Positions 7,199-36,612 of a stretch of 64,000 nt of DNA are shown here, in pieces. Source of the stretch: Elusimicrobiota bacterium. GTDB lineage: Bacteria; Elusimicrobiota; Elusimicrobia; JACQPE01. The translations under genes were made by a program, and so were the position numbers. Under the pieces are notes generated by a model. That model worked only from the letters and a program-made list of their open reading frames with translations, made no database searches and was not told the origin of the DNA. The DNA lies in contig JACPAN010000015.1 in NCBI GenBank assembly GCA_016180815.1, positions 62,001 through 126,000 of the forward strand. Reading direction: 5' to 3'. The first letter of the stretch is position 1. Each line of letters begins with the position of its first letter.

Positions 7199-8572
7199 CT
7201 AGTAGCTGACCACCCGGTTGCGGCCGACCCCTTTGGCCATATAGAGACGCTCGTCCGCGGCGCGCAATAACTGATGAGGACTGGTCGTTTCCTCGGGGAA
7301 GCCGGCCACGCCTACGGAAATTGTGGCCTTTAAAACGGAGGATCCGTTGGGCCTGAATTCCTGAGCTTCGACTTTTTGGCGGATCATATCCATGGTTTGC
7401 GCCGCCTGTTCTTTGCCGGTCTCCGGAAAAAGCACGACGAATTCCTCGCCGCCGTAGCGCGCCACGAAATCCACGTCGCGAACCAAAGTCTTCAACAGTC
7501 CGCTGATCAACACCAGCAGCTGATCCCCGGCTTGGTGCCCGTAACGATCGTTGACCGATTTAAAATGATCGATATCCACCAAGGCCATGGTCAAGGATAA
7601 ATTGTACCGGCTGGCTTGCGCGCATTCCTGAAGAAGCCGTTCATCAAACACCTTGCGCGTATAAACCCCGGTCAAGGTGTCTTTAACCGCCAATTCTTCG
7701 ATTTTTTGAACGAGCGAGGCGTTTTCCAGACCCAAATTAACCAACAGCGCGTACAAATCCAAGACGCGCACGTCCTCTTGACTCAACGCCCCGGGCTGGC
7801 GCGATTGAAGCTTCAACACCCCGGTGCGGCCGCCGGACGCGTGCTCCTTGATGGGCACCATGGCCAAGGACCGGTAATCATAAAGAAACCCGCGCTCAAA
7901 ATAAGCGCGAAAGCGCTCGTCCTTTCTTGTGTCCGTCACCAATAAAAACCGGTTATGATCGCGCATCCAAAGCTCAAACGGGTCCATGCCGGCCTCGCTC
8001 GACGGGTGAAACCAAGCGACTTCAACGTCCATGCCCGAATAATTCAGCTTGACCGCCTCCTTGAGGCCCTGTTGAATTTCAGCCGGATTCAAACTTCGCC
8101 CGATCATGGCCACCCCTTGGGCGAGACGGCGGCGAAGCTCGGTCTGCGCCTCCACGTGGGCGATGCGGGCCTTATAAGAAGCGGTCTCCCGGTGCAGCTC
8201 CGCCAAGGCGCGCTGCGCCTTGTCCGTTTCCATGGCCGCGGCTAACAGCGCCTTGTGATCCCGCTTAGAGAAACGGGCGCATAGCATGATTAAAATCCAC
8301 GCCGCCACGATTTCGCCCCCGACCCATATGGCCGCGGCTTTTTTGGCCAGCCCCAGAACCACTCCCGCGCCCGCGATGGTGGACAAGGCCACGAACAAAT
8401 ACCCGATCTCAATGCCAACGGCGGTGGCCACGGCCAAGCATAAGGGCAGCTGCCACAAATGAATGCTGGGCACGTCAATAATATGCCGGAACGCCGAATA
8501 CGTCACGGCAAAATAACCGGCCACCCCGGCAATGATAAAAGGCGCCATCCAGCGGCGATTTTTATGTTTCAT
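7199..8572 (-). CDS. Membrane-anchored GAF-GGDEF diguanylate cyclase
   Basis: Predicted c-di-GMP synthase. Three to four hydrophobic segments occupy residues 10-100, then a coiled coil and a GAF-type domain (about 145-285, ending NLGLENASLVQKIEEL). The GGDEF domain runs to the C-terminus with RYGGEEF, GGEEF at 374-378. Unlike the downstream paralogue it keeps an I-site, RDVD at 365-368, so it should be subject to product inhibition. Closely spaced with the 5840-7186 gene, with the same domain order, suggesting a tandem duplication with diverged regulation. Confidence 0.9.
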   Translation of the reverse strand: MKHKNRRWMAPFIIAGVAGYFAVTYSAFRHIIDVPSIHLWQLPLCLAVATAVGIEIGYLFVALSTIAGAGVVLGLAKKAAAIWVGGEIVAAWILIMLCARFSKRDHKALLAAAMETDKAQRALAELHRETASYKARIAHVEAQTELRRRLAQGVAMIGRSLNPAEIQQGLKEAVKLNYSGMDVEVAWFHPSSEAGMDPFELWMRDHNRFLLVTDTRKDERFRAYFERGFLYDYRSLAMVPIKEHASGGRTGVLKLQSRQPGALSQEDVRVLDLYALLVNLGLENASLVQKIEELAVKDTLTGVYTRKVFDERLLQECAQASRYNLSLTMALVDIDHFKSVNDRYGHQAGDQLLVLISGLLKTLVRDVDFVARYGGEEFVVLFPETGKEQAAQTMDMIRQKVEAQEFRPNGSSVLKATISVGVAGFPEETTSPHQLLRAADERLYMAKGVGRNRVVSY

Positions 8573-15198: not shown

Positions 15199-16452
15199 TT
15201 ATTTTAACAAGGAAAAGGGTGGTGGCCAGGAGAGGATTCGAACCTCCGTAGGGCATGGCCCGCCGGTTTTACAGACCGGTGCATTTAGCCGCTCTGCCAC
15301 CTGGCCGAAACTGCTAAACCCCCTGATTTCCAGGGGATTTTCTAAATCTTTTCCGCTCCCGTCACTAGCGCTTTTTGCTCCAGGTGGCATTAGGGTGTCT
15401 TTTTGAGAAGTAATTTCAACATTCCCTAAGCCTCCCAGGCTGTCTAAAACCCGAACGGCGCGCGCCTTATGCTCCGGCGAAAGATGCGCGTAACGCTGAG
15501 TCATTCGAAAACCGCTTTTGTGTCCCAGAAGCTCCCCGATCGTGGAAAGATCGATACCGCGCATCACGAGTTGCGATGCGAACGTATGCCTTAAATCGTG
15601 AAATCGAAAATCCCGGATGCCGGAGAGCTTGAGGGCCTTCTCAAACTGCGTCCTAATCCTACCAAAACGGCTCTCTTTTTTTCCCTTGCCGCTGACAAAC
15701 ACATAGGGTGAGTCCGGTTGTTTTACAACCGCCCGCAGAATTCGCATGAGCGGAAGGCTCATGGGAATAACCCTGGCCCCCTTGTTTTTGCTGTCCCGCA
15801 CGAAAATGAGCCCATTTTTAAAATCCACGTCGTCCCAGGCCAGATTCAATATCTCTCCCAATCTCATGCCCGAATGAATCGCGCAGATAACAATGGGGCG
15901 CAACCACTCGCAGGAGCACGAAACCAAAGAGGCAATGTCCCCTGCTTCCAAAAATCTGGTTCGCATATTGTTTTCCTTAAAAAACGGAACCGCCCTGACC
16001 GGATTTTCCTTGGCCTTGCCCCAAACCACAGCCCTCGAATACATAGTTTTTAAAACGGAAAGTTCGCGGTTGACACGTGCGCCGGAAACCTCCGTGCGCC
16101 GGACGGCTTTGTACCCCTCGATTTTAAGCGGCGTTATTTCGTCAAGAAAGCAGTTTCCAAAATGCCCCATGAGCTTATTCAAGATAATCTCATCATCGCG
16201 CCACGAACGCTTGTTGGGCTTGGCATGATTTTCTATATATAAAGCGATCATTTCCGCTAACGGAATACGCGCCTCTTTGACCTTGCCCAAAAACCGGCCC
16301 TCCGCTATCTCAACAATGCGCTTTTTCAAAATTTTCTGGGCCACAGTTTTATTGGGTCCGGCTTTTTCGCGAATTCTCCTGCCGTTAAAAACGTAATCAA
16401 TGTAAAAATCCCAACAACCGCCGGTCTTATTCCACTTTCTGTAAACCGCCAT
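15199..16452 (-). CDS. int: Tyrosine recombinase/integrase whose 3' end runs through tRNA-Tyr
   Basis: Site-specific recombinase of the integrated element. Residues 1-60 look like an arm-binding domain, about 65-160 a core-binding SAM-like domain, and about 165-335 the catalytic domain with R197, H285-x-x-R288, H311 and nucleophile Y321. After about residue 340 the sequence is no longer catalytic. Residues from about 383 onward are the in-frame translation of tRNA-Tyr (GQVAERLNAPVCKTGG) and the stop lies beyond the tRNA at 15199. The att core is therefore inside the gene. It is 9 bp downstream of the excisionase-like gene. Confidence 0.95.
   Translation of the reverse strand: MAVYRKWNKTGGCWDFYIDYVFNGRRIREKAGPNKTVAQKILKKRIVEIAEGRFLGKVKEARIPLAEMIALYIENHAKPNKRSWRDDEIILNKLMGHFGNCFLDEITPLKIEGYKAVRRTEVSGARVNRELSVLKTMYSRAVVWGKAKENPVRAVPFFKENNMRTRFLEAGDIASLVSCSCEWLRPIVICAIHSGMRLGEILNLAWDDVDFKNGLIFVRDSKNKGARVIPMSLPLMRILRAVVKQPDSPYVFVSGKGKKESRFGRIRTQFEKALKLSGIRDFRFHDLRHTFASQLVMRGIDLSTIGELLGHKSGFRMTQRYAHLSPEHKARAVRVLDSLGGLGNVEITSQKDTLMPPGAKSASDGSGKDLENPLEIRGFSSFGQVAERLNAPVCKTGGPCPTEVRILSWPPPFSLLK
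15220..15306 (-). tRNA. tRNA-Tyr (GUA anticodon), rebuilt by element integration
   Basis: Minus-strand class II tRNA: acceptor GGCCAGG/CCTGGCC, discriminator A at 15223 and an encoded CCA at 15220-15222. The anticodon loop is CTGTAAA (GTA), followed by a variable arm and T-loop GTTCGAATC. Its 5' half, from the anticodon loop to the acceptor, is identical to a copy at 36573-36611 and belongs to the att repeat. The whole tRNA lies inside the integrase reading frame, so its present promoter must come from the element. Confidence 0.95.
15268..15307 (+). repeat. Attachment-site direct repeat, tRNA-proximal end
   Basis: A 40-bp segment identical to 36573-36612. It starts in the anticodon loop and covers the whole 5' half of tRNA-Tyr. 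Bases at both edges differ between copies (15267 T against A; 15308 A against C), which defines the core. The copies are 21,305 bp apart. Confidence 0.92.
15380..15410 (+). repeat. Element-end repeat, left copy (possible integrase arm site)
   Basis: 31 bp matching 36454-36484 with two mismatches, in direct orientation, 73 bp inside the att core. The first ten bases, CCAGGTGGCA, also equal the 5' end of tRNA-Tyr. This copy is inside the integrase coding sequence. Confidence 0.7.
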
Positions 16453-18110: not shown

Positions 18111-18269
18111 TGCCCCGCCCCCTGCCATGTTGGGCTTTTCGCCGATAGCACCAGGTCACAACACCATTGCACAGACCTGGTGGGTGGAGGGTGGTCAGTC
18201 TTCGCGCCAGCGAAGACTGACCACCCTCCACCGCGAAAAGACCGGCTTTAGATGGCAGGGGGCGGGGCA
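18111..18269. repeat. Nested palindrome locus
   Basis: Several perfect inverted repeats are nested. An 18-bp outer arm (18111-18128 with 18252-18269) encloses an 8-bp arm (18135-18142 with 18233-18240), an 8-bp hairpin (18149-18156 with 18175-18182) and a 23-bp arm with a 4-nt loop (18183-18205 with 18210-18232). A further 9-bp arm (18161-18169) pairs outside, with 18303-18311. Nothing protein-like is convincing here. The position upstream of a replication-relaxation-like gene suggests an origin of replication or transfer, or a structured RNA. Confidence 0.85.
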
Positions 18270-21717: not shown

Positions 21718-22713
21718 TCACCATCGCGCTGCCAGGCTCACCCGATGCGTATCCCCCAAGAGTCCAAAGGGTTTGAAAGCATAGTCAATTTGAGCCCCCA
21801 TCAAACGGAAACCGACGCCTCCTGAGATTCCGTCGAGTCCGCTGTTGCGGGCCAACGGAGCCTGTTTGCCGAGGGCCGCAATATAGCCGCCGCGCAGGCT
21901 TAAGATCGGCAGGGCCTGATACTCGGTGCCGATATTAACACTGGTTTTATGGTTGATGAGTTGTTGTTTGACGTCCAAGGCTAAGGCGATGCCCATGGGG
22001 AGCCGGTAGCTTAAGCCTCCGGAAAGCGCGAGCGGCAACGGATCGCGCTGCTCGATAAATCGAATCCCTGGGCCTATGTTCTGCAGGGCTAGACCCAGGG
22101 ATATGGGGGAATGGGAACGCGCGGAAATCATCAATCCCAGATCAAAAGCAAAGGTATCGGCTCTATAGCCTGCAATCTCGCTTTGAATAAGCTTGGTATT
22201 TAATCCCGCCTGGATAAAGCCTATTTTTCTGCCATAGCCCAAGGATAAGGATTGATCCTGGGCTTTGATCGATCCTGTTTTTTCTCTGTTTTGTCCCCTT
22301 GCCTCGGAAGCACCTTGAGACAGAACGCTGATAGAGCCCGCGAATGTCCCTATTTTCCCCGGATACCCGAACCCCAGGAAATTGTATTGACTGTCTAAAA
22401 GCCACTGAGAATACATAGCCCCTATCTCAGGCTGATTCATTAAAGCCAATCCCGCCGGGTTCCAGTGCAAAGAGGAAATGTCATTAGCTAAAGCCGTGTA
22501 GGCCCCGCCCATGCCCACGGGCCTGGCTCCCACCGGGATATTCAAAAACTCGGCCCCTGTTTTTTGAGTTGTTTGAGCAAAAAGGGATAAAGCCATGGTC
22601 AAAATCCAGGCTAAAGCAGCCAGCACAGCCCCCAGCCAAACCTTGCTCCTTCGCGCCGGCCGCTCCGGCGGATAAACATGTTTAGTTATAAGAGGACACT
22701 CACCTGACCACAT
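21718..22713 (-). CDS. porV: PorV/PorQ-family outer-membrane protein
   Basis: Predicted outer-membrane barrel of the FadL-like PorV/PorQ group. The hallmark FLNIPVGARPVGMGGAYTALANDISSLHWNPAGLA follows a signal sequence (residues about 22-46). In type IX secretion, PorV shuttles cargo with C-terminal sorting domains to the cell surface. It overlaps the last 14 bp of the giant gene, with an AAAGGA Shine-Dalgarno 7 nt before the ATG, so the pair is translationally coupled. The giant protein ends in a sorting-like domain, supporting a cargo-partner relationship. Confidence 0.85.
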   Translation of the reverse strand: MWSGECPLITKHVYPPERPARRSKVWLGAVLAALAWILTMALSLFAQTTQKTGAEFLNIPVGARPVGMGGAYTALANDISSLHWNPAGLALMNQPEIGAMYSQWLLDSQYNFLGFGYPGKIGTFAGSISVLSQGASEARGQNREKTGSIKAQDQSLSLGYGRKIGFIQAGLNTKLIQSEIAGYRADTFAFDLGLMISARSHSPISLGLALQNIGPGIRFIEQRDPLPLALSGGLSYRLPMGIALALDVKQQLINHKTSVNIGTEYQALPILSLRGGYIAALGKQAPLARNSGLDGISGGVGFRLMGAQIDYAFKPFGLLGDTHRVSLAARW

Positions 22714-25700
22714 AAATTTTTCCTTTGGCTCTCAGAACTTCCGAGCCTTTTTTGGCTTCAACCAGATAGATGATTTGAGGCAGGCCGCTTAGGCTTTCCT
22801 CTTTGACAAGCTCCCCGGATATCGAATAAATCAGGATGCGCGCGGAATCAGCCAGGCCGGTTTCAATGTGAAGGGTGGGTTTGGCTCCGCCTATAGCGGG
22901 ATTGGGATAGGCATAAATTTCTCCCAATTGGAATTTTGGATCAGGTCCCAAGGCTTGCGGAGTGTCAAGAGCGGCCGCTGTTTTAGCGCCGCCTTTTTGT
23001 TTCTCGCCGTCTTGTGTTTGCGCGGGGATTTGACCGGATAAACCGTCGGCTTGAACAAAGAGCGAAGCCCCTTGAATCACGATGTCTTTAGCAAAAAGAT
23101 TGCCGGTAATCGAGCTGTTGCCCGTGGCTTTCACCGAGGAGTTCGGCGCATAAAGAATAACCGCGGCCCGCGATCCTCCCGCAAATTCGTGGGTTCGGTC
23201 GAAATCCGAGAACACGACCAAGTCTGCGGCCCGTCCCGAGGCGTTCATCGATCCTGCGCCGGTGATGACCAGAGGCCCTGTCAGAAAAATGCGCACGGGA
23301 CCGCTGGAAATTAAAGCCGCTTGGGAATCGATGCTCATCCCGGAGAAAAGATAGCTGCCTGCGTCCAACGTCAAGATCGCGCCCTTGCTGACAACAAGCG
23401 CCCCATCCGGGCTCAGGAATTGGCTTGGGATTAAGCCGTTGTCGTTGGTTTGGGCCAAATCAGCTTTGATGGAAGCTAAATCAATGGGAGAGGCATGAAC
23501 GGAATCCGAAGCGATGGTTTGCGTGCCGATAATAACGCTGTTTCCTTTAAGCTCGATGGCCGGGGCCATCACGCTTCCCGTGAGGCGGACATTGCCCGAA
23601 GCGTTGTAGGCGCCGTTGGAGACGATTTTACCCACAATATCCGCCGTTCCCGAGGCGGTGATGGTAGCCGTCCCTGCCGCGATCATGGCCGTCTCCCTTA
23701 AAGGCGTCACGGACAAAGCGAGTGTCCTCGCAGTCTCAAGATTCCCCAGATTATCCCGGCTTCTGTATTTGACGGCATGCTCCCCCTGGGCAGGCAAAGT
23801 AAACGCCGCAGAATAGACCTGAAAAGCGTCGTCATCAACGGCAAATTCCGTTTGCGATACATCGGAGCTCACCCCGTTAACCTTGGGATCGACCGCAGAA
23901 AGAGTAATGAGGGTATTGGGTGTAATCACGGTCCGGCCAAAAGCGCTGAAGGCGCCCTCCCCCAAACTCAACTCAGTGGTGGGCGGGGTGTTATCCACCG
24001 CGATTTGGACGGTCTTTATCGTTTCTTGATTTCCCACCACATCCACGGAAAAGAATTTCACTTCATGAAACCCTTCAGCAGAAATAGCGAATGTGGCGCT
24101 AAATACGGCAAACGATGATTGATCGACGCTGAACTCGGTCCGGGCCACGCCCAAACCGATGCCGTCGCCCACCTCGACTAAATCATCAATAGCGGAAAAC
24201 CCAAGCGATGTGTCCTTGGTGACAAAAACAGGGTTGTCCCCGAATTTGGGCTCTCCGGCAACCAGGCTTGTCCTGGGCGCCAAAAGATCATGAATCACTT
24301 CAAAAACTCCGGACACGGTAATTGTTGAGTTATTTACCCAGTCCTTGGCCTCAACCTCCAAAACCCAAAGACCATCGTCAATAGAAAGAGGGTCGATCAC
24401 TTGTCCTTGATGGACGATAAGTCTGGTTGGACCTCTGGTTGTTCCGGTGTTCTGACGTTGCACCAATTCCAGGCGCAGAATGTCGGGAGCGGGATCGAAA
24501 TTGTCGGAAACAGAAGCGTTGATTGTGATCGAGCCTTGGGAAGCGACAAAGCGTTCCCCTCCTGCCGGGGAAGAAACGGTCACAACAGGAGGGGTCCGGT
24601 CAATCAAAATCTTTTCGGTTTGATCCTCGCCTTGGTTTCTGGATAAATCCTTGCCGGAAATGACGATGGTTTGCTCGCCTTCCAGGGCGTCTTGAGCGGC
24701 CGAGAGTTTAAACGTCCAAGAAAAAGACGGCGGCTCGTTTTTGTCAAAAGCCTGCGAGTTTCCGGCTTTAACCACCGGCTCGCCTAAAAGCCGTTCAGAA
24801 GCGATGAAGCGTATCGTGGCCGTGGACAAGGGACCGGCGACAGATGGTGAAGAAACATCAACAATGCGGATTAAATCAAGCGACAAAAATTCCAGCACTG
24901 GGCTTGCCTGTTCGGTCGTGGCCCGCGAGAGCGTGCTCCTAAACTTGATTTGGCGATGGGTTATATCGGCTGACGATAAAAGATCGATAGGAAAGAAATT
25001 TTGTCCGTCCGAGGTGAACTCGTGTTGAATGGAGCCTTGCGCCAAATTCTGCGTGACCTGGAAATGATTGATTTTGGACAGCTCAGGCAAGCTGATAAAG
25101 GGCGTTTCCACCGTGCCCAGCAATGTGCCCTCTTGGGAGCCGCCGCCTCCGTTGCCTGAAGGGCCGGAGAGTATTCTAAAGCTCCGGACATCCAAACCGA
25201 TGGGCACAGGCTCAAAGGAGCGGGCTTCCAAGCCGAAGCCCGCTCCGCGAAGATCGGGGTCCCCAAACGTCAGTTGCCCCGTAAGAATTTCATTGCCGTT
25301 GACGGACAACCGGACATTGCCCTGGCTAACCGTGACAAGATAATCGAGGAAATCGAACGTTTGCGCCGGAGGCAGGTCGATATCCCTTCTGCCCAACACC
25401 TGTTCCCTGGAATTGTTGAACAAACGCGCCAGCCCGGCGGCTGTGTCGATTTCCAAAACGCCTCCAAATTGATCATCCTGCATAAAAATCAACAGCCTGG
25501 AATCCGATGTTTTGAGCGCGGCGCGCAGCTCCAAGCGATATTCCTGCGAGGCGCTTAATTCCTGCATAAACAAATAGTTAATATCCCCGTCATCCGGGGA
25601 GGAAAGCTTTAAGAACGATTGCATGGTCGCGCCTTCAGTCACTATTTGTTCGCTGGGAGGCTGGGTAAAGAATCGATTGATTCTTTTTTGAACGAAGGGG

Positions 25701-28700
25701 CCGAATTGTTCGGGCAGCACAGTCGCCTGATAATCCACCAAGACCCCGCCCGGACCTCCGCCGTTGCCCGGGGAGCCTCCTGTCGGCGGCTCGGGCCCTC
25801 CCGTGAAATACCGGAAGAATTCAAACTCCGCGTCCAGGGTTCCGTCGGGAACCAGGGTCTTGGCTCCATAGGCCACCTGGGGTAGGGCGTCGAAGGCAAA
25901 GGGCGAAGTAGGAAGAGCAGCCTCAAGGCGTAGAACGCCGTCTTCAAAAACGCGCACTAATTGTTCCGCGAGCGAGTTGGGATCAGGCCCCACGCTCAAT
26001 AGGTAAGTCCTGGTTTCTCCGGTACCCGCTCCGATTGGAAACTCGCCGATCGTTGCCGTCTCAGGAGATAATAAATCGCCGTTTGTAAAACGCAGCGTGC
26101 CCTGGCCGGGCTCGATCAATAGCTCCAGGGCCGTGTCTTGATCGCTGATAACCGTCATGCTTAAGGCTGTCTGTTCATTCATGGCCCGGCCCCGCATCTC
26201 CGTGACATAGCCCTGATCAATGTTCAACTCAAAATTTTCCTGGGTATAAAAGGCATGGGCGAAGCCGAAGGTCGTCAATCTTAAACTCCCCGGCGTCAAT
26301 TCCTGGGATACGTTTAAAATAGGAATCGAGGCCAAGAATTGGAAAGGCGGAGCAAAGCCGGTGGGAAGCTCGGCAGTTCCCGCGGCCTGATACTCTACCG
26401 TCCATTGCCCGGTTCCCGGATCGGGACCCGGCCCCGGACCCCCGCCATCAATCAATTTCACCCCGCCGTTGAAGGCCGTCAGCCCGTTAAACACGTTGAC
26501 CGGGTCATTGGCCTGGATGAATAAGGGGGCTGTTCCCGAGAACGTGGGCGGCGTGTTGTCCACCACGATCACCACGCTTTGGGCGGAGGAATGATTGTCC
26601 AGGTTATCCGTGGCGTCAAAAGTCAAAACAAAACGGCCCTCTTCGGAAAAATTCATGGGGAGCATGACAGGCTCGGAGTTACCTTGATCAGCGGGGCATT
26701 CATCTGTGACTGGGTCAGGCTCAGGACAGGGCTCCTGAGCGTTGCCGTTTAACCGCTCCAGCCTGAATACGGTTTCCCTGACCCCTGAGCCTGCGTCCGT
26801 GGACCTAAAATCAATCATGTCCGCGCTGTTTACATAAATCGTCCCGTTTTCCCGGAACACTCCAGAGGGTAGAATAAGTTCCGTGGCAGGCGGGGTATTG
26901 TCTAGGGCGATTTTTATTGTTTGGGTTGACTCTGAGTTGCCCTCGGTATCCTGCGCGTAAAATCTCAAGTCATAGGTCCTGTCTTCAACGCCCAGAAGAT
27001 TAAGGGCCTTGGAAAAAACAGGGGACGTGGATTGGGGATTGAGCACGGCTTCATCAAAAATGGAATCTAAGCCCAAGTTCAAGCGTTCCACCCCGATGCC
27101 CTGGCTGTCCCCTAATTCATTGGCATCGTCTTTGACATCAAAGTTAAGCGTTGTATTAGCCGTTATAAAAACAGGCTCCTGCCCTAATCGCGGCAGTCCG
27201 ATGAATAGCGTTGTCCTTGGCGGTAGAATATCCTTGTGCACGATTTCAAAAGGACCGGAAACAACCGAAGTCGAGTTAAAAACAGAATCCTGCGCTTGCG
27301 CGCTCAGCGTCCAAATCCCGTCATCCAGGCTTAGAAGATCAAGCTCCTGGCCATTAGCCACGGGAGCAAAAGCCGGTCCCGTTGTTTCTCCTTTGTCCTG
27401 CGTTTGAATCAAAGTAGCCGAAGAAATTGGGGCGGGATCAAAATTGTCTTGAACCAGAACGTCGATTTTGGCCTTGTCTCTGGGATGAATGAGCTTGATA
27501 TTGGATACGGGGGATTTTACGGTGATTCTTGGCGGCGTCACATCCACCAGAACAAGAGCGGTTTCATCTTGTCCTTCATTGCCGGACAAGTCCCTTCCCT
27601 TAATAACGACCGGGATCAATCCTTCCTGGATGCCGTTATCGATTAAGAAATTAAAATTCCAGGACAAAGACGCAGGCACATTGCCGTCAACGGCGTTTAA
27701 GTCGCCGATTGTGACCGAAGGCTTGCCCACAAGTCTTTCCGAAGCCAAAAATTCGATGTTTAACGGCTGTCTTTTACTGATGGCTGAGGCGGACAATTGG
27801 ACCTTGCTGTCAAATTCCAGACGCAAAGCCGTTAAAACAGGGCTTTTCTTTCCTTTATCATCCCGGCTTAACGTGCTTTTGAATTTGATTTGCCCTGCCG
27901 ATATTGCCGTCTGGGAAAGCTCGCTAACGGGAAAGAAATTCGTTCCATCATTGGTGAATTCATGAATAATTTGCCCCTCGTTCACAAATTGAATGGGGGT
28001 AAAGCCGGAAAACAAAGCCGATGTCGAAACATTGATGAACGGCGTCTCCAATGTCCCGGCCAAAGCCCCTTCCTGAACGGTTTTAGCGATGCGGAAATAA
28101 TCGATTTCCATTTGTGGAAGGCCCTGCGCGACGAAGGGCTCGACAGCCGCCACGCCGAAGAACCCGCCCGGATGCAAAGAAGCGGATTTAGGCGGCAATT
28201 GCGCCTCAAAAAGCGTTTGATTATCGGCAAAAACTTTGGCTTTCCCGCTATTGACCTCGATTGCATAGGCATGGAAGCTCAACGCATCAGGCATGGGCGC
28301 CGAGGCGATGGGCGCGCCCAGCATATCCGCCTGAATCCTTGCGCCTCCCGCCTGATCGATTAAAAGAATTCCGGCAAAACTTTCGTCCTCAAAGCCGAGG
28401 GCTAAGAGGGAATTCGGGCTCGCTGGCCGTCCTCGTAGTTGCAGTTGATAAGACTCGTTTGAGTTTAACGCGAGGGGAAATTGATACGCAATGCCACCTA
28501 AGTCCGTTTGGACTTGGAGAATATCCTCGCGTATTTTTTCTTCGGTTTCTTCAAGCGTGGGCAAATTCGCGCCTTCCTTGATGCGCGCGAGTCCAACCTC
28601 ATTCGGCAACCGGGCCGCGTCATAAGAGAAAACGGTTTCCTGCCCTGTTGCGCCCCTGGCCGCCCGGAAAAAATCGATTTCCGCGATGCCTTGACCGATG

Positions 28701-31700
28701 GGCGCCAGGCTCTCCACACCGAAACCGGCAAAAGTCAAAGCAGCAGGGTCCGGGGGCAAGGGCGGGTTTGTCCTAAAAGCAAAACCAATGGGCTCGTTAT
28801 TAATAAAAAATGTCATCTCTTCTCCGGTCGCGCCGCCGTTATTTAGGCCATAGGAATTGAATTCCTGAGGATCAAAGCCCCGCTCGCGGATATTCATCAT
28901 TTGCATTTCGACCTGCACATCCTGCGTTCTTTGAATGGAGACATTGCCGTCATGATCGACTCTCAATTGGAAGGAGTTCCTCTCATCGTTGAATTGCATC
29001 AGCAAAGCCGCCCTGTCGACGACGCGCCCCCGCATCTCAATGCCGTAAGGCTCGTCTGAATTAAATCCGGTGTTGACGAAAAGATAAGAGACAAAACCTA
29101 AGGCGCCTTCCACGCCCACGCGCAATGCGCCGGCCATGATTTCCTCAATCACCGGTTGCGCGTTGGAAAGCACGGTTTGCAAAGGCGGATTATTGTGCTG
29201 GGGCAAAACATTGCCTTCATAAACCAGCAATCCCTCCGGGTCTTTGCGGATAACGAAGGATTCAACCTCAAGCCCCACGTTTTTAATATCCGCCGCAATC
29301 GCGTTCCTTGCGCCGAACCCGGTCAAAGTGTCAGCCAAACTTCCTTCAAAAGGCGGCAGAAAGCCGGTAAAAAGAATTTGCCCGTCTATGGAAAGCTTTA
29401 AATCGCCTCCCTGTACGCTTACGCCCCAGGTGTGGAAATTACCCACATCGATTCCTTGGGCCGCATAAAGAATCTGCCCGCCGGACACCAAAGCCAAATG
29501 CCCCGTCTTATCCAAAAACAGCCTGCCCTGGAATTGCCCGTCGAAGAAATTTAATGTCATGACCGACTCCAAATCTCCGATGGGCCGGGCTTTCAATTCC
29601 AAGGTGTATTGTTGGGAGCTGTTGATATTGGGATTTAAGCTGTAGAAAAACCCGCCCTGAGTCCGGGCCGCGGCCCTTAAAAATCGCTGATCGATGACTT
29701 GTTGGGAAACAATTCCTCCAATAGTGTCTTGGCGAAGAGGCATGGTTCTGACGATGGGGCTGAAGTCTTGAGGAATCACCCCGGCTTCGTAGCTGATCAT
29801 GGGTTTGACCGGAGTCTGTTGAGGCAATTGGGGACCGTCCGTAAAATAACGGAAGTAGTCGATTTCCACATTGCTGGAATTCGCCCCTGCGCCGAAAGGA
29901 TCGCCCGCCCCAAATTCCGCGAAGGGCATGAAGGGCAACTCATGGGCCGGGATATGAGGCGGCAGAAACTCGCGCACATCCTGCTCAACAATCGTTGTTT
30001 CATCCGCCAGAACCTTGACCAGAAAATCCTTGACCGCAATGCGGTAATCATGGAATTCCATGGGCTCGTTAATATCGAACTCCTGCTGGAACCATCCGCT
30101 GCCGAAGGCAAGCTCCTCAGGGTTGTCCCCGACAGTCAATCGCCCTTGCCCGGCGCCGCTAATCGTCAAAAGAATCCCGTAGCGGTTGTTGAATCCGCCC
30201 ATTCTTAGAGCCGAGTCCTCGTCAACGGGCCTGGCCCTCATCTCAAGGACATAGCCCTTATCCGAAGAAATCCTCAAATTGGGCTGCTCGTAAATCAAAG
30301 CCTCCCCTTGAAATGCGCTAATTTTGAGCAAACCCTCTTCGACGCTTCGCTCAAAAGCAGGGGCAAAGAGAGGAGAAATCCTAAACCTTGGCGTGTTTTC
30401 TTCAGGCAGAACGTCCCCCGTATATTCCACGCTCCAGGGGGAAAGCAAAGAAGGGTCAACCTCTCCTTGCCCCGCCAATCTTACCGAGGCGTGGGCGATT
30501 TCCAAATCCGTCAGCGTGTTCAAGGGGTCGGCGGCCCGGACATAAAGCGTGTCCGAGAATGAAGGAGGGGTGTTGTCGATGATTATGGTCGCCGCATGGC
30601 CTGCCTCCGCGTTATCGACATGGTCCACGGATTTAAAAACAAGAATGAATTCGCCTTCGGAGGGGAAAATCAACGGCTCTTGAGGATTGAAAACCTGGAA
30701 TTCCCCGCCGTTGACGCTGTACAGAGTATGTTTAACGCCGGCCAAATTGTCTTGGGTTTCAAAACTAAAGGAATCGTTGCTCGTTGCGTAATAAACGTTG
30801 TTTTCTTTGAAGAGTTCTCTTGATGCTTTGAGTGTTGTTTGCGGAGGGGTTTGATCTAAGGCGAGGATTGCCGTCTGCTGTTCTTCCTGGTTGCCGGAGA
30901 AGTCTGTGGCAGAGTAGCCGATGGTATGAGGACCATCCCCGGCCCCTAAAAGGGTCACCGTGGTGATGAAGGGCTTATCTGGCGGGTCTTTGTTGGAAAA
31001 GATATGAGTAAAAAGTCCGTCAATGGTTACAGTTAGACTGGCCACGCCCACGCCTAAACCGTCCCCCGGAGAAAGAAGCCCGTCGTTTGAAGTCAATTCC
31101 AAAGGCGTGTCCGGGCCGATGATTAAAGGCTCGGCAATGATCTGAGGCGTGCCCACCCGCAGTACGGTCCTGGGCGGCACCCGATCCTCCCCCCGTTTAA
31201 TGGCCACGATAAAGGTGCCCAAGGAGGATGTAGTGCCGATCACCACGTTTAACGATGTATCTAATTGGGTGGTGATGTCGATCAATGAGCCGATTTGATA
31301 TAGACGAACGTTTGCCTCATCTTCCGGATTCAACCCCGCATCGTCATAGGGTATACGCAATGCCACATTACCCTGCGTATTGGCCAAAGAAATGACTCCA
31401 AATTGAGGAACAACCGTCTGCACCGCCTCCTCCGGCGGCAGAACGTCTTCGCTTTCTAAGAAAGCATAGATGTGTCCTGGATGAGAAACTTGGTCAAAGG
31501 CAAGCTCGGCGTTGTTAATTCCAAGTTGAACAGAAATGTTATTGCCTCGGCGCAAAACTTGAGTTCCGGGTATCTCGTTCTCCAGAACCATCGCCCGAAG
31601 GATTCCTTGCGGACGAGTTGGGTCAAAAGCAACGGGAAAAACCCCAGCCGAACTATAAACATAAGCTGGTTCTCCGGTATCTGTCTCCAACCAACAAAGC

Positions 31701-34030
31701 CCCAAAGACCTCGGAGTGGAAAATTGATTGTGATCAATAAACCTGTACGAAAGGGTTGGGGAGCCATCTAAAGGTATCGAATTGCCTTGAGGGACAATAT
31801 TGATGGTTTCAATTCTATCGGCGCAGGGAACAAGAAAAGGATCTGGAAATTCGGGAATGTTGGCCTGAGGAAAGACCGGACTTATTTTAGGCTCAAGACT
31901 TTCATTTTGATTCGATTGAAAAGCGGGATGACAGATCAAATTGTTGGAATCCGAACCTAGGCAGAATTCCCGTGTTTGGGAAAAGACAGTGCCGGCTACC
32001 GTAAGATCATTAAAGCAGGGGCTTGTACTGGGGTTGCAAATATGAGGTGAAATAGTACGGCTGAAAATACCCGCAGGGACGACAACACGATGCGGGCTGC
32101 CGCTTAGAATCCGTCTATTCCAATTAATTTTTAGTTCCAATGGGACTATGGTTTCGCCGAGAAGACCCAACATTCCTGAAAAATTTAATTCAGCGACTTC
32201 ACTGATAGTTTTGACAACCACACCTCCTTCGACCACTTCAGATTCAGTGCCGGGGATATGAGGAGCTTCAATCGGAAATTCTTCAATGCGCCAACGAAGC
32301 TGAGCTTGCTCCGGTGAAAGCAACCCTCTGTGAACCAGCCGGGAAACTCCCCGACTCCAAATTTTAAAATTAGCCAAATTGATCTGAAACTCGCTGGGTG
32401 ACGAATCCGAGCCATCTTGGGTCGAAGAATTGCCCGCTCGGTCAATGGCGACGATACTATAGCTGCCATCCGGCAAAGACCCGATGTTAAAAGGCGCATT
32501 GACTAAATTTTCTCCAGAAAAACTTATTTCATTGATGACGTTCTCTGATGAATCTTGTAGTTTAACCGACGCTATGCCGCTGCCTTCATCCGTTGCTTCA
32601 ACGGCCAATGAAGGATCGTCAAAAGTGGCCGCCAACTTTGGGCCCGAGATGTCCAATATGAATGAAAAATTTTTGATATTTCCCGATTTATCTTTAGCCT
32701 CTACGCGATAGGTCCCATCCGGCAGACCGGACAAAGAGAACTCCGTGCTTTGAGGAGTGGTTTCTCCGCCAAGGAATCTTGACTGAGAAATTTCCGAACC
32801 GTCAGGACCGAACAGTTTGATTGACTCCAAACCGCTTTTAGGGTCCTCGGCCTGAGCCAAAAGCTTGGACGTATTGGTAAATTGGCCTTCAGGCAAGGAT
32901 ATTTCGGTGTCGGCAACGATAAGGTCTAAAGTCGGCGGGGTCCCATCAATCTCAAATCTGGTCTCTTGGCAGTTGGTTTGGTTGCGGATGTTCGTCCAAC
33001 AGGCGATGAGCCGGTGTTCGCCGTCATGAAGACCCTCCGGCATCCAGTCGGTAAAAACAAAGTCTTCGCGGCCGACTCCCCTCGGTAGCACTCCATTGCT
33101 GCTGCCGTCTGCATAAACCGGCGGGTCTCGGTCCCGGCAGCCCGGAAGATCATCCGGGCATCCGCTGGTTTCGATATCGGTATGTAATGGGTCATGGAAG
33201 CTGGTTAATCCTCCATAAGCCCAGGTTCGAACATGCCCGGTGATTGAAATGTTATCCACGAAAATATCCAACGAGTCTAAGTTGGTCCCGATTTGAGAAT
33301 CCAGCCGGACTTTTAAAAATGTGCTTGCAGAATTATGGACATTGACTAGAAAACCGTTGGTCCGGACGCGTCCCAATTGGTCGATAAATTGAACGGTGAA
33401 ATTGCTGGCGGTATGATTGATATGGGTTAGAGGATTTTCGCTGACGCCGAGCCCAAGATCAATGTGCATGTGCGCGGGAAAGCCACCGGATGTGCCGGCG
33501 GGGCCGACGGGGGAACGCGCACGACTTGTGGTGCGCAAATTTTCCCCTTGTGCATTTAGAACAGGGGTTCCATTTATTAAAACGAGCTGGTTATCTGCGT
33601 TTTCCGCAGACAATGCATAATCTGCCACCGTCCGATTTGTACCTTGCAGCCAGCGCACGATACACAAATTTTCCTCATCGGTTCTTGTCAGGGTAAATTC
33701 TCCTGAGTCTATAGGTAGGGAAGCATTGTTGAACATATGAAGATAGCGAAAAAAATGGTTGTTATCGGTGAGTAAGCTTAAGATAAGAATACCATCGTTG
33801 GCGTAATTCAGTGAGGTTATCCGTCCTGCTTCTAAGAGTGGAAGTGATACGCCCTCTGCCGTTCCGTAATCAATACCTTTATGGAAATCCGGAGATGGTA
33901 ATAGTCGCGGCCCAAAATCCGAAGTAACGGTGAAGCCGGGATCCACGGCTGTAATATGAGCATGGGCTATATTGGTGACAGTAAAAAAGCATCCCGCCAA
34001 AATAGCTTCGAGCGCAGCATACTTCAACAT
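22700..34030 (-). CDS. Giant secreted protein: M23 peptidase, Ig-like and lectin-like repeats, sorting domain
   Basis: About 3,776 residues, exported by a signal peptide (1-25). Residues 30-260 are an M23/LytM peptidase domain with H51-x3-D55, H99 in RYLHM and H188-x-H190, a complete zinc/catalytic set. Then come Ig/OmpL47-like modules marked by TPP or PPRT segments (near 954, 1064, 1157, 2169, 2269, 2381, 2496, 3147, 3254, 3351) and jellyroll modules ending in EIDYFR-like strands (1200-2130 and 2560-3000). A bactofilin/DUF7305-like solenoid spans about 3450-3665. The last 75 residues resemble a type IX sorting domain (IYAYPNPAIGG, ILIYSISGELV). It is coupled to genes on both sides. Start is ATG at 34030 or the GTG just before. 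Confidence 0.85.
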   Translation of the reverse strand: MLKYAALEAILAGCFFTVTNIAHAHITAVDPGFTVTSDFGPRLLPSPDFHKGIDYGTAEGVSLPLLEAGRITSLNYANDGILILSLLTDNNHFFRYLHMFNNASLPIDSGEFTLTRTDEENLCIVRWLQGTNRTVADYALSAENADNQLVLINGTPVLNAQGENLRTTSRARSPVGPAGTSGGFPAHMHIDLGLGVSENPLTHINHTASNFTVQFIDQLGRVRTNGFLVNVHNSASTFLKVRLDSQIGTNLDSLDIFVDNISITGHVRTWAYGGLTSFHDPLHTDIETSGCPDDLPGCRDRDPPVYADGSSNGVLPRGVGREDFVFTDWMPEGLHDGEHRLIACWTNIRNQTNCQETRFEIDGTPPTLDLIVADTEISLPEGQFTNTSKLLAQAEDPKSGLESIKLFGPDGSEISQSRFLGGETTPQSTEFSLSGLPDGTYRVEAKDKSGNIKNFSFILDISGPKLAATFDDPSLAVEATDEGSGIASVKLQDSSENVINEISFSGENLVNAPFNIGSLPDGSYSIVAIDRAGNSSTQDGSDSSPSEFQINLANFKIWSRGVSRLVHRGLLSPEQAQLRWRIEEFPIEAPHIPGTESEVVEGGVVVKTISEVAELNFSGMLGLLGETIVPLELKINWNRRILSGSPHRVVVPAGIFSRTISPHICNPSTSPCFNDLTVAGTVFSQTREFCLGSDSNNLICHPAFQSNQNESLEPKISPVFPQANIPEFPDPFLVPCADRIETINIVPQGNSIPLDGSPTLSYRFIDHNQFSTPRSLGLCWLETDTGEPAYVYSSAGVFPVAFDPTRPQGILRAMVLENEIPGTQVLRRGNNISVQLGINNAELAFDQVSHPGHIYAFLESEDVLPPEEAVQTVVPQFGVISLANTQGNVALRIPYDDAGLNPEDEANVRLYQIGSLIDITTQLDTSLNVVIGTTSSLGTFIVAIKRGEDRVPPRTVLRVGTPQIIAEPLIIGPDTPLELTSNDGLLSPGDGLGVGVASLTVTIDGLFTHIFSNKDPPDKPFITTVTLLGAGDGPHTIGYSATDFSGNQEEQQTAILALDQTPPQTTLKASRELFKENNVYYATSNDSFSFETQDNLAGVKHTLYSVNGGEFQVFNPQEPLIFPSEGEFILVFKSVDHVDNAEAGHAATIIIDNTPPSFSDTLYVRAADPLNTLTDLEIAHASVRLAGQGEVDPSLLSPWSVEYTGDVLPEENTPRFRISPLFAPAFERSVEEGLLKISAFQGEALIYEQPNLRISSDKGYVLEMRARPVDEDSALRMGGFNNRYGILLTISGAGQGRLTVGDNPEELAFGSGWFQQEFDINEPMEFHDYRIAVKDFLVKVLADETTIVEQDVREFLPPHIPAHELPFMPFAEFGAGDPFGAGANSSNVEIDYFRYFTDGPQLPQQTPVKPMISYEAGVIPQDFSPIVRTMPLRQDTIGGIVSQQVIDQRFLRAAARTQGGFFYSLNPNINSSQQYTLELKARPIGDLESVMTLNFFDGQFQGRLFLDKTGHLALVSGGQILYAAQGIDVGNFHTWGVSVQGGDLKLSIDGQILFTGFLPPFEGSLADTLTGFGARNAIAADIKNVGLEVESFVIRKDPEGLLVYEGNVLPQHNNPPLQTVLSNAQPVIEEIMAGALRVGVEGALGFVSYLFVNTGFNSDEPYGIEMRGRVVDRAALLMQFNDERNSFQLRVDHDGNVSIQRTQDVQVEMQMMNIRERGFDPQEFNSYGLNNGGATGEEMTFFINNEPIGFAFRTNPPLPPDPAALTFAGFGVESLAPIGQGIAEIDFFRAARGATGQETVFSYDAARLPNEVGLARIKEGANLPTLEETEEKIREDILQVQTDLGGIAYQFPLALNSNESYQLQLRGRPASPNSLLALGFEDESFAGILLIDQAGGARIQADMLGAPIASAPMPDALSFHAYAIEVNSGKAKVFADNQTLFEAQLPPKSASLHPGGFFGVAAVEPFVAQGLPQMEIDYFRIAKTVQEGALAGTLETPFINVSTSALFSGFTPIQFVNEGQIIHEFTNDGTNFFPVSELSQTAISAGQIKFKSTLSRDDKGKKSPVLTALRLEFDSKVQLSASAISKRQPLNIEFLASERLVGKPSVTIGDLNAVDGNVPASLSWNFNFLIDNGIQEGLIPVVIKGRDLSGNEGQDETALVLVDVTPPRITVKSPVSNIKLIHPRDKAKIDVLVQDNFDPAPISSATLIQTQDKGETTGPAFAPVANGQELDLLSLDDGIWTLSAQAQDSVFNSTSVVSGPFEIVHKDILPPRTTLFIGLPRLGQEPVFITANTTLNFDVKDDANELGDSQGIGVERLNLGLDSIFDEAVLNPQSTSPVFSKALNLLGVEDRTYDLRFYAQDTEGNSESTQTIKIALDNTPPATELILPSGVFRENGTIYVNSADMIDFRSTDAGSGVRETVFRLERLNGNAQEPCPEPDPVTDECPADQGNSEPVMLPMNFSEEGRFVLTFDATDNLDNHSSAQSVVIVVDNTPPTFSGTAPLFIQANDPVNVFNGLTAFNGGVKLIDGGGPGPGPDPGTGQWTVEYQAAGTAELPTGFAPPFQFLASIPILNVSQELTPGSLRLTTFGFAHAFYTQENFELNIDQGYVTEMRGRAMNEQTALSMTVISDQDTALELLIEPGQGTLRFTNGDLLSPETATIGEFPIGAGTGETRTYLLSVGPDPNSLAEQLVRVFEDGVLRLEAALPTSPFAFDALPQVAYGAKTLVPDGTLDAEFEFFRYFTGGPEPPTGGSPGNGGGPGGVLVDYQATVLPEQFGPFVQKRINRFFTQPPSEQIVTEGATMQSFLKLSSPDDGDINYLFMQELSASQEYRLELRAALKTSDSRLLIFMQDDQFGGVLEIDTAAGLARLFNNSREQVLGRRDIDLPPAQTFDFLDYLVTVSQGNVRLSVNGNEILTGQLTFGDPDLRGAGFGLEARSFEPVPIGLDVRSFRILSGPSGNGGGGSQEGTLLGTVETPFISLPELSKINHFQVTQNLAQGSIQHEFTSDGQNFFPIDLLSSADITHRQIKFRSTLSRATTEQASPVLEFLSLDLIRIVDVSSPSVAGPLSTATIRFIASERLLGEPVVKAGNSQAFDKNEPPSFSWTFKLSAAQDALEGEQTIVISGKDLSRNQGEDQTEKILIDRTPPVVTVSSPAGGERFVASQGSITINASVSDNFDPAPDILRLELVQRQNTGTTRGPTRLIVHQGQVIDPLSIDDGLWVLEVEAKDWVNNSTITVSGVFEVIHDLLAPRTSLVAGEPKFGDNPVFVTKDTSLGFSAIDDLVEVGDGIGLGVARTEFSVDQSSFAVFSATFAISAEGFHEVKFFSVDVVGNQETIKTVQIAVDNTPPTTELSLGEGAFSAFGRTVITPNTLITLSAVDPKVNGVSSDVSQTEFAVDDDAFQVYSAAFTLPAQGEHAVKYRSRDNLGNLETARTLALSVTPLRETAMIAAGTATITASGTADIVGKIVSNGAYNASGNVRLTGSVMAPAIELKGNSVIIGTQTIASDSVHASPIDLASIKADLAQTNDNGLIPSQFLSPDGALVVSKGAILTLDAGSYLFSGMSIDSQAALISSGPVRIFLTGPLVITGAGSMNASGRAADLVVFSDFDRTHEFAGGSRAAVILYAPNSSVKATGNSSITGNLFAKDIVIQGASLFVQADGLSGQIPAQTQDGEKQKGGAKTAAALDTPQALGPDPKFQLGEIYAYPNPAIGGAKPTLHIETGLADSARILIYSISGELVKEESLSGLPQIIYLVEAKKGSEVLRAKGKIYVVR

Positions 34031-34033
34031 CAC

Positions 34034-35050
34034 TTATTCCTCTTTCTCTTCGTTTGTTTCTTTAAGTACATGTTGGCCAGGTCTCCATATATATTTTCTA
34101 AACCGATCGCGATGCACTTCCCTCTCTTCTCCCTTGAAGAAGCGTACGCGATGTTTGGTCTTGCCTTGGCCCATCAATTTCCATCCCACTATAACGCCAT
34201 CATCGTCAATCTCGCGAAGAGACGCGGTTTTTTCCCCCCAATCAATTCCGTAGACTTCGCCTCTGATTAGGTGTATAGCTTTAAGCCAATCTTTCCAAAC
34301 ATCTTTCTCAATAATAGGAGGACCAGGTTGCTGAAAAACTAGCCATTTTCCAGTAGGGGAAATCAGAAGGGTGCCACCCCACGATCCCTTCGACGATGTG
34401 GTTGAGAACATAATCTCGCAGCGATCGTTCAATACATAAAGATAACTGTCGGTCAGAGAATGATCATTTTCAAGTTGATCTAGGGACTTGAGTTTTGGGA
34501 CGTCGTGATACACCTCAAAGGAAACTGGGTCAAAACCTCCGTCTTGTGCCACCAACGCTTTCCCATTCGCAGATAAGCGAATAGGGACCACCCTCGTTTG
34601 AAGTTCGCATGATAAAGTTCCATCGGCTCTATACCAAGATAGATGTACGGCGCTGGAGAAACGAATTTTATACGGATTACGTTCATCTTGATCCCGGAGC
34701 CATTCGTAAATGACCACATGGGATTGATCTTTACTCACGAGCGCATGGACCAATTTATGCACACGGTGCTCTTCCTCAATGAATTCCCCAGGACCAAAAG
34801 AGAGCCGTTTTAATTCATTGCCTTTGGAACTTCGGAAGACCACCCCGCTGATTTGTTTCTCACCGCGTGGATGAAAGAACTGTTTTTTCGCAAAAATGAC
34901 CTCTATTGGGGGCCGTTCTGCTGTTTGCTGCGTCGTGTCGGTGCTTACTGCGAAGGCCGCGATAGGTGCGGTTGCCAAAAAACAGGCAATTAAAATAAAC
35001 GAATCTATCAAGTTTGATTTTTCCCGAACCTTAAAATTTTTGATGTTCAT
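34034..35050 (-). CDS. Secreted protein of unknown function, first gene of the riboswitch operon
   Basis: A signal-peptide-like segment lies at about residues 15-36 (SFILIACFLATAPIAAFA). The mature 300 residues are beta-rich with spaced motifs such as HVVIYEWLRDQ, LLISPTGKWLVFQQ and GVIVGWKLMG, reminiscent of beta-propeller blades; I cannot name a family. ATG at 35050 has a GGAGG Shine-Dalgarno about 10 nt upstream and is favoured over GTG at 35056. The stop is adjacent to the giant gene's start, so it is co-translated with it. Confidence 0.65.
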   Translation of the reverse strand: MNIKNFKVREKSNLIDSFILIACFLATAPIAAFAVSTDTTQQTAERPPIEVIFAKKQFFHPRGEKQISGVVFRSSKGNELKRLSFGPGEFIEEEHRVHKLVHALVSKDQSHVVIYEWLRDQDERNPYKIRFSSAVHLSWYRADGTLSCELQTRVVPIRLSANGKALVAQDGGFDPVSFEVYHDVPKLKSLDQLENDHSLTDSYLYVLNDRCEIMFSTTSSKGSWGGTLLISPTGKWLVFQQPGPPIIEKDVWKDWLKAIHLIRGEVYGIDWGEKTASLREIDDDGVIVGWKLMGQGKTKHRVRFFKGEEREVHRDRFRKYIWRPGQHVLKETNEEKEE

Positions 35051-35198
35051 TGACACCTTTCCTCCATACGATATTTCAGATTTATGCTGATATTAGCAGT
35101 CCAATGGAGATAGGTGGTAGGAATGAAACAAATCGGTACTAAATGCGAACGTCTAATCTTCCAACACATATGCACTCTTCCCCTCTCTTTTTACGCAC

Positions 35199-35290
35199 TC
35201 AAAAGCAAAAGCCGGGCTGCCTGAAAATAAAGACAACGGCGCGTTCCCAAAAAACGCGCGTTCATCTTTATTGTCTTTCGGCAGCCCGGC
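35199..35290 (-). terminator. Riboswitch-controlled intrinsic terminator
   Basis: On the minus strand GCCGGGCTGCC (35290-35280), the 3' part of the aptamer, is complementary to GGCAGCCCGGC (35221-35211), followed by TTTTGCTTTT. The inner part also pairs (AAGACAA/TTGTCTT and AACGCG/CGCGTT). Aptamer and terminator therefore compete for the same strand. Ligand binding should block the terminator, giving an ON switch. Confidence 0.75.
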
Positions 35291-35360
35291 CCTCTCCGCT
35301 TAAAGCAGAGAACCTTTACGTCGGCTTTGCGCCCCCTGATCGCTCAGGGTTTGCCGTTTC
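35279..35360 (-). ncRNA. Cyclic di-GMP-I (GEMM-I) riboswitch aptamer
   Basis: The minus strand contains the GEMM-I signature: GGCAAACC, then a short hairpin capped by a GCGA tetraloop (CTGA-GCGA-TCAG), then GCGCAAAGCC, a second helix (TTCTCTGC/GCGGAGAG) and the closing GCCGGGCTGCCG. Order, spacing and the GNRA loop match the class. It lies about 230 bp upstream of the secreted-protein/giant-protein/PorV operon on the same strand. Confidence 0.87.
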
Positions 35361-35415
35361 GTTTGCAAAAAATTAACAATCCTTCAAAGAACGATCCAGC
35401 TTTTAACCTGGCTTA

Positions 35416-35445
35416 AGCGTAAGGGGCGATCTTAACGGTTGTCAA
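35416..35445 (-). promoter_or_regulatory. Candidate promoter of the riboswitch operon
   Basis: A perfect -35 TTGACA (35445-35440) with an 18-bp spacer and a weak -10 TACGCT (35421-35416), about 50 nt upstream of the aptamer. The weak -10 would suit an activated promoter, and a dyad lies just upstream of the -35. Confidence 0.4.
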
Positions 35446-35456
35446 GACCAGCGGGC

Positions 35457-35476
35457 GTGTAACAAAATGGTTACAC
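35457..35476. promoter_or_regulatory. Operator-like dyad, copy 1
   Basis: GTGTAAC/GTTACAC with 6-nt spacer AAAATG. It shares GTAACAAAATKGTTAC with copy 2, and sits about 11 bp upstream of the candidate -35, an activator position. Confidence 0.6.
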
Positions 35477-35576
35477 CTCATGATTGAGGACTTAAAGGCT
35501 GGGCGGAGAATTTACCGTCGAGGAAATAAATTAAAAGGGAAAACTACTTTTGGGGAGTAAAAATAAAAATGAGGCG

Positions 35577-35594
35577 CGTAACAAAATTGTTACG
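35577..35594. promoter_or_regulatory. Operator-like dyad, copy 2
   Basis: CGTAAC/GTTACG with spacer AAAATT, 119 bp from copy 1 and immediately after the stop of the degenerate response-regulator gene. The shared 16-bp core differs at a single base. Confidence 0.6.
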
Positions 35595-36453: not shown

Positions 36454-36484
36454 CCAGGTGGCATTAGGGTGTCATTTTGGGAAG
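36454..36484 (+). repeat. Element-end repeat, right copy
   Basis: Matches 15380-15410 with two mismatches, same orientation, 88 bp inside the right att core. Non-coding here. Two direct copies of GGGTAAAG (36501-36518) follow between it and the core. Confidence 0.7.
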
Positions 36485-36523
36485 CAAAACGGCTCAAAAC
36501 GGGTAAAGTTGGGTAAAGAAAAA

Positions 36524-36572: not shown

Positions 36573-36611
36573 TTTACAGACCGGTGCATTTAGCCGCTCT
36601 GCCACCTGGCC
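36573..36611 (-). pseudogene. Orphan 5' half of tRNA-Tyr
   Basis: Identical to the 5' half (acceptor to anticodon loop) of the complete tRNA-Tyr at 15220-15306, but what follows on the minus strand (TGTCAAGAACCC) is not tRNA. This is the original chromosomal half displaced by integration, still next to its presumed promoter. Confidence 0.9.
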
Positions 36612-36612
36612 G
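36573..36612 (+). repeat. Attachment-site direct repeat, distal end
   Basis: 40 bp identical to 15268-15307; marks the right boundary of the integrated element. Confidence 0.92.

Follow-up and report, generated by a model that had tools for sequence, protein, structure and literature searches.

A class-I cyclic-di-GMP riboswitch on a tRNA-Tyr-integrated element, predicted to act as an ON switch ahead of a giant-protein operon in an Elusimicrobiota bacterium

We describe a class-I c-di-GMP riboswitch that is carried by an element integrated in a tRNA-Tyr gene, probably controls its operon by ON-type transcription attenuation, and would bring this giant-protein operon of the element into a regulon of the host clade. 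The window, i.e., the whole stretch of DNA analysed, comprises 64,000 nucleotides of an Elusimicrobiota contig (JACPAN010000015.1, positions 62,001 to 126,000), and its features are collected in Table 1. The aptamer, its overlap with a terminator, the conservation of this overlap, the element and the regulon are all evident at the level of sequence and are presented below together with the mechanism that we propose and the alternatives to it.

Table 1. Positions of the features discussed (window coordinates; the last row refers to further loci)
Feature	Position	Strand	Remarks
Host diguanylate cyclase	5840..7186	-	GGEEF intact; outside the element
Host diguanylate cyclase	7199..8572	-	GGEEF intact; outside the element
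Tyrosine integrase	15199..16452	-	last ~35 codons run through tRNA-Tyr (15220-15306)
att copy 1	15268..15307	+	5' half of tRNA-Tyr
Element protein P0007	16687..18090	-	weak match to a phage replication initiation family
PorV/PorQ-family outer-membrane protein	21718..22713	-	14-nt overlap with the giant gene
3,777-residue giant protein	22700..34033	-	signal-peptide-like start
Secreted-type protein, first gene past the riboswitch	34034..35050	-	ATG at 35050; no family match
24-codon open frame MNARFLGTRRCLYFQAARLLLLSA	35191..35265	-	begins 11 nt past the aptamer, runs through the terminator
Terminator U-tract UUUUGCUUUU	35201..35210	-	
Intrinsic terminator stem-loop	35211..35290	-	80 nt; stem base 35290-35280 with 35221-35211
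c-di-GMP-I aptamer (RF01051)	35277..35365	-	G20-, A47- and C92-equivalents are G35354, A35327 and C35280
TTGACA, candidate -35 box of the riboswitch promoter	35440..35445	-	
Operator-like palindrome 2 GTAACCATTTTGTTAC	35456..35475	-	119 bp from palindrome 1
Operator-like palindrome 1 GTAACAATTTTGTTAC	35575..35594	-	
Regulator gene P0004	35601..36278	-	receiver-like domain and weak Trans_reg_C winged helix
att copy 2	36573..36612	+	identical 40-bp repeat
YajQ/DUF520	60557-61054		outside the element
Type-B examples L046, L047, L056, L058, L063, L087, L104 and others	first 100 nt past aptamer		

The original prediction placed a GEMM-I aptamer on the minus strand and proposed a search with a covariance model as a check. 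Such a search with the Rfam model RF01051 yields a full-length match (model positions 1-87) that scores 44.7 bits against a gathering cut-off of 35 (E 1.7e-5). Aptamer and terminator are found where they had been located, at 35199-35360, except that the aptamer starts about 5 nt earlier. The ligand-contact residues G20, A47 and C92 are all kept, as judged from alignment and motif. The change G20A is linked with cGAMP binding (PMC6274999); since the window aptamer has G at the position-20 equivalent, c-di-GMP is favoured over cGAMP as the ligand and a cGAMP-type aptamer is disfavoured. The score is the lowest of the three above-cut-off matches of the genome, and the aptamer carries an insertion of 6 nt (CGUAAA) at the base of P3 that is absent from its paralogues, which suggests that its affinity could differ.

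The 3' strand of the aptamer, GCCGGGCUGCC (35290-35280), is at the same time the 5' arm of a long intrinsic terminator ahead of the operon and pairs perfectly over 11 bases with 35221-35211, so that the sharing of this strand, also part of the original prediction, proves to be exact. The 183-nt region folds with -86.3 kcal/mol, compared with -58.2 +/- 4.5 for shuffled sequences (z -6.3). In stepwise folding the aptamer-type P1 persists between about 35283 and 35223, interrupted by a single transient alternative at 35247, and it disappears once 35221-35211 has emerged. At equilibrium, the terminator state (-82.0 kcal/mol) is favoured by about 19 kcal/mol over the aptamer-preserving state (-62.9, obtained as the sum of the aptamer fold and a separate downstream fold), and consequently switching must be kinetic, i.e., decided during transcription. 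The terminator form pairs C35280, the C92-equivalent, with G35221; because the ligand-pairing C is buried in this manner, the predicted sign is ON. The mutual exclusion of aptamer and terminator supports, as far as sequence can, the earlier expectation of read-through with c-di-GMP bound. An ordinary terminator of the upstream gene P0004 was considered and is ruled out, given that the hairpin lies more than 300 nt past the P0004 stop and behind the operator-like sites; it is further contradicted by several loci in which the 5' arm is the aptamer strand.

The overlap of aptamer and terminator recurs with other base pairs in the genomes G001 (CCAGACUGCCG), G003 (GCCAGGCUG), G028 and G231. The switch stems differ among these loci while the complementarity is retained, and in G001 and G003, which belong to two further genera within the family, the overlap precedes a relative of the window giant protein followed by PorV. 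The comparison thus strengthens the ON reading, with the same platform built of different base pairs before related operons. In G001, a giant-type C-terminus and PorV lie behind an ON-type switch, with no recognised integrase at that place. The aptamer before this chromosomal relative of the window operon (L021/L053, G001:C43:43152) is a better match to a rarer family, c-di-GMP-I-GGC (RF03167, 66.5 bits).

The three-gene operon for a secreted protein, a giant protein and a PorV-family protein was confirmed as well. The PorV-family protein scores 178 bits with NF033709 (cut-off 90) and 61.6 bits with the PorV equivalog, which is under the cut-off of 250; the one named relative found for it, with 29% identity, comes from an Elusimicrobia MAG. 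The giant protein contains Ig-like domains, at least five OmpL47-type repeats and DUF7305, and its N-terminus is weakly M23-peptidase-like (E 0.019 against a solved M23 peptidase). Its C-terminus resembles the type-A domain of the type IX secretion system (T9SS) below the cut-offs, with 18.9 bits for PF18962 (cut-off 27) and 16.9 bits for TIGR04183 (cut-off 23). SprA_N (PF14349) had no match in the genome in a search that lacked a working positive control. The features of the giant protein and the presence of PorV suggest export to the surface, and a role in surface attachment would be our guess.

That the riboswitch resides on a mobile element, as originally proposed, is borne out by att repeats, an integrase and a relative in which the element is missing from the site. 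The element measures 21.3 kb and is integrated in tRNA-Tyr, its direct repeats (40/40 bp identical) lying 21,305 bp apart. In G001, MTHFR, two other genes, tRNA-Tyr and tmRNA are found with the element absent, which is not an exact empty site. The att repeat corresponds to the 5' half of the tRNA, which puts the element on the promoter side of tRNA-Tyr, and it must therefore supply or preserve the tRNA upstream region. A 34-bp repeat (91%) is located just inside both att sites (15380-15413 and 36454-36487) and occurs also in G003 (L139:6193-6232), between tmRNA and an inverted tRNA-Tyr and beside an AbiE-like gene pair; these repeats are perhaps integrase arm sites. A perfect 23-bp inverted repeat with a 4-nt loop (18183-18232) lies in the element across a 125-codon frame. 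P0007 has paralogues elsewhere in the genome (G000:C28:22390-23727 and G000:C19:10112-11392, 79% and 42%), which suggests that the same genome probably holds further related elements. No relatives of P0007 were found in the viral contigs searched, and no phage structural genes were recognised among the element proteins scanned. Another element protein, P0006 (20261-21583), has by eye motifs like those of class III nucleotidyl cyclases (FCMRID and GDGAMAFLG), a marginal match to PycC (E 0.01) and a single relative (39%, in G047); its structure prediction, made without relatives, was unusable (pLDDT 36).

Between the regulator gene P0004 and the riboswitch, there are two near-identical palindromes of the form GTAAC-N6-GTTAC, a pair that is expected 0.01 times by chance. 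The second palindrome lies 29 bp ahead of TTGACA; the promoter with this box was not picked by a consensus promoter scan, and its -10 box is weak. A comparable arrangement is found on contig C41 of G003, which belongs to the same family and another genus. In this contig, an integrase relative (34%) adjoins tRNA-Glu, an orthologue of P0004 (38%) is located upstream of an ON-type riboswitch, and the riboswitch is followed by four other genes, a protein of 1,958 residues whose C-terminus shares 39% identity with that of the window giant, and PorV. The palindromes of G003 have a different sequence, TTTCA-N4-TGAAA, and are again placed between regulator and riboswitch, 116 bp apart and with the second one 31 bp ahead of TTGACA. 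By its content C41 is element-like; the contig ends at this locus, which leaves the other att site beyond view. The recurrence of the arrangement with different palindromes argues well, on comparative grounds, for control of the riboswitch promoter by P0004-type regulators, presumably through binding to these sites.

The two diguanylate cyclases and YajQ that the original prediction had noted near the element are present, and both cyclases are intact at GGEEF, but they are not the whole set, as the genome has seven GGDEF genes. The proposal that the element reads the messenger of its host fits a switch on the element and cyclases in the host; the case is not an isolated one, as PorV and giant-protein genes of the host are already behind riboswitches. 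Four aptamers, one of which is below the cut-off (29.9 bits), are distributed over three loci of the genome, and all four precede PorV or giant-protein genes: one lies before the window operon, one before the genes for a 178-residue protein and a giant of 6,254 residues or more, and two in tandem before a PorV/TPR gene. Across the phylum, aptamer matches occur in 139 of 341 genomes. A PorV-family gene is among the first downstream genes at 25 of 76 loci in 28 genomes, as assigned by clustering, compared with about 1% expected from the density of PF03687 (roughly 6-7 per genome) by a rough estimate; the PorV gene of G001 was found separately and is additional to these 25. About 16 further loci, counted by hand, have a gene of at least 1,500 codons close behind, and about 42 of the 76 have either feature. 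Some riboswitches head a cluster for PorV with TPR, FliG-like protein with TPR, coiled-coil proteins, FlbD, MotA and MotB (L006:8951-19900 with L112:1-1444 in this genome; L045:884-8877; L059; L083). FlhA is missing here and in 39 of the 41 genomes in which it was searched for, which makes it probable that the cluster is not a flagellum; it is possibly a surface-motility or secretion motor.

Many aptamers of the phylum are followed by a different arrangement, referred to here as type B, where the start codon and an intragenic terminator follow the aptamer directly. Of 138 loci examined, 72 have a frame of 60 codons or more that begins 0-18 nt past the aptamer, most commonly at +4 (21/72), and 43 of these 72 genes contain an intrinsic terminator in codons 3-37. 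In the first set, terminators were found in 25 of 37 genes, whereas the proportions were 9 of 149 for signal-peptide-like controls, 8 of 392 for other genes and 4% for codon-shuffled sequences; the second set, from other genomes, gave 18 of 35 by nearly the same rule, which allowed hairpins of up to 90 nt instead of 60. When a single rule is applied throughout and each sequence cluster is represented once, the count is 24 of 37. Fisher p values are 8e-15 and 2e-9, uncorrected for relatedness. The hairpins differ from gene to gene, and the U-tract, which usually starts 60-90 nt past the start codon, codes for hydrophobic signal-peptide residues (e.g., VFFYVQV). Shine-Dalgarno-like sequences are not enriched before type-B starts (14/72, compared with 28% in controls). 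For type B, a switch in which the aptamer 3' strand pairs with the intragenic terminator was also considered, but such pairing did not generally exceed that of shuffled sequences (mean rank 0.41; 12 of 72 at 0.05 or below). We infer that the aptamer covers the ribosome-binding region and that the terminator works when translation fails to start; occlusion by the bound aptamer would make the sign OFF. Neighbouring type-B switches could be under OFF control, and the direction in which c-di-GMP acts may therefore differ between members of the regulon.

For the window locus, we propose that RNA polymerase would start at a promoter near 35445, probably controlled by P0004 via the two palindromes. 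If no ligand is available, 35290-35280 would be captured by 35221-35211, resulting in a terminator ahead of the operon. To prevent this, c-di-GMP would have to bind while the polymerase covers the roughly 60 nt that precede emergence of the 3' arm. In the bound state, the strand would stay in the aptamer and the upper hairpin alone would form, at a distance from the U-tract that precludes termination, so that by read-through the secreted-type, giant and PorV genes would be transcribed, possibly for export and surface display of the giant protein. The cargo of the element would in this way be added to the PorV and giant-protein genes that already form a c-di-GMP regulon in the host clade.

Several other explanations have to be weighed against this mechanism. 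It is unlikely that the aptamer is a relic or a very weak binder, with the hairpin as a constitutive terminator and the operon driven by P0004 alone. The low bit score, the P3 insertion and the strong equilibrium preference for the terminator could be read that way, but every ligand-contact position is kept, and the overlap of strand and arm is conserved elsewhere with compensating sequence, which an unselected aptamer should not keep. An OFF switch or a mixed device, where the 24-codon frame would be translated and ribosomes rather than ligand alone would decide about the terminator, much as proposed for the type-B loci, appears improbable to us. The position of its ATG so close to the aptamer, the course of the frame through the terminator, the short frames behind aptamers in G001 and G028 and the intragenic terminators in 43 of the 72 aptamer-adjacent genes of the phylum are consistent with such a device. 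However, a clear ribosome-binding site was not found, an ATG within 20 nt is not rare, and aptamer and terminator are mutually exclusive here without any ribosome; the frame may be a chance occurrence.

We consider it very improbable that the main ligand is another cyclic dinucleotide such as 3',3'-cGAMP, possibly supplied by an enzyme of the element or the host. The motif recognised by hand in P0006 and its marginal PycC match would point in that direction; class III cyclases are not known to synthesise cyclic dinucleotides. The pilM switch, which has the same ON geometry, does sense cGAMP (PMC9262584), but the window aptamer has G and not A at the position-20 equivalent, and it is found in a genome with seven GGDEF genes. 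Beyond the proposed c-di-GMP-responsive ON switch at the window locus, we put forward a wider and more tentative picture, which we consider slightly less likely than not: a phylum-wide c-di-GMP regulon of giants, PorV and FliG-like/MotAB proteins, together with the start-codon platform and a two-key gate on the element, formed by its own regulator at the promoter and the ON-type riboswitch.

The closest known system is the pilM riboswitch of Geobacter metallireducens, which is of GEMM-I type, senses cGAMP and is an ON switch with a terminator that pairs C75 with G102 (PMC9262584). Both switches have the aptamer 3' strand in the terminator, a sequestered ligand-pairing C and one exclusive co-transcriptional choice. 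The window switch differs in G at the position-20 equivalent, a much longer terminator (80 nt) and a longer decision stretch, and it is located on an integrated element before a giant surface-type protein and PorV, whereas pilM has its switch before pilus genes. Prophages of C. difficile carry c-di-GMP-I aptamers at the phiCD119-type lysis module, Cdi1_4 and Cdi1_5 (PMC3649979). They likewise place an aptamer on mobile DNA to read the messenger of the host, but precede lysis-module genes, in contrast to the envelope-protein cargo operon of the window. The Bc2 RNA of Bacillus thuringiensis is reported to be a c-di-GMP riboswitch controlling a collagen adhesion protein (PMC4933901). It resembles the window locus in preceding a surface adhesin gene and is unlike it in that the gene is a Gram-positive chromosomal one with no PorV partner and no element. 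The neighbourhood of a PorV/PorQ-family protein and a large protein of exported type, whose C-terminus is type-A-like, is reminiscent of type IX secretion, except that here the C-terminal domain is below cut-offs and SprA_N was unmatched in the search without positive control.

Both c-di-GMP-I aptamers on mobile DNA (PMC3649979) and adhesins behind such switches (PMC4933901) are already known. A literature search of incomplete coverage found no work linking Elusimicrobia with c-di-GMP riboswitches, and none on an element with regulator and riboswitch, on its recurrence, on a PorV/giant regulon or on the type-B platform. We regard the element with regulator and riboswitch, its recurrence and the phylum-wide PorV/giant regulon as new; the platform of aptamer, start codon and intragenic terminator looks new.

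If the proposed mechanism is true, the very long cargo gene of an accessory element is wired by RNA to the messenger with which the host sets sessile or motile life, and the same wiring is present in a second element-like locus. The type-B platform would be a compact way to avoid 10-18-kb transcripts that go untranslated. Together, these observations point to a large c-di-GMP regulon, unreported until now, in a phylum that has received little study.
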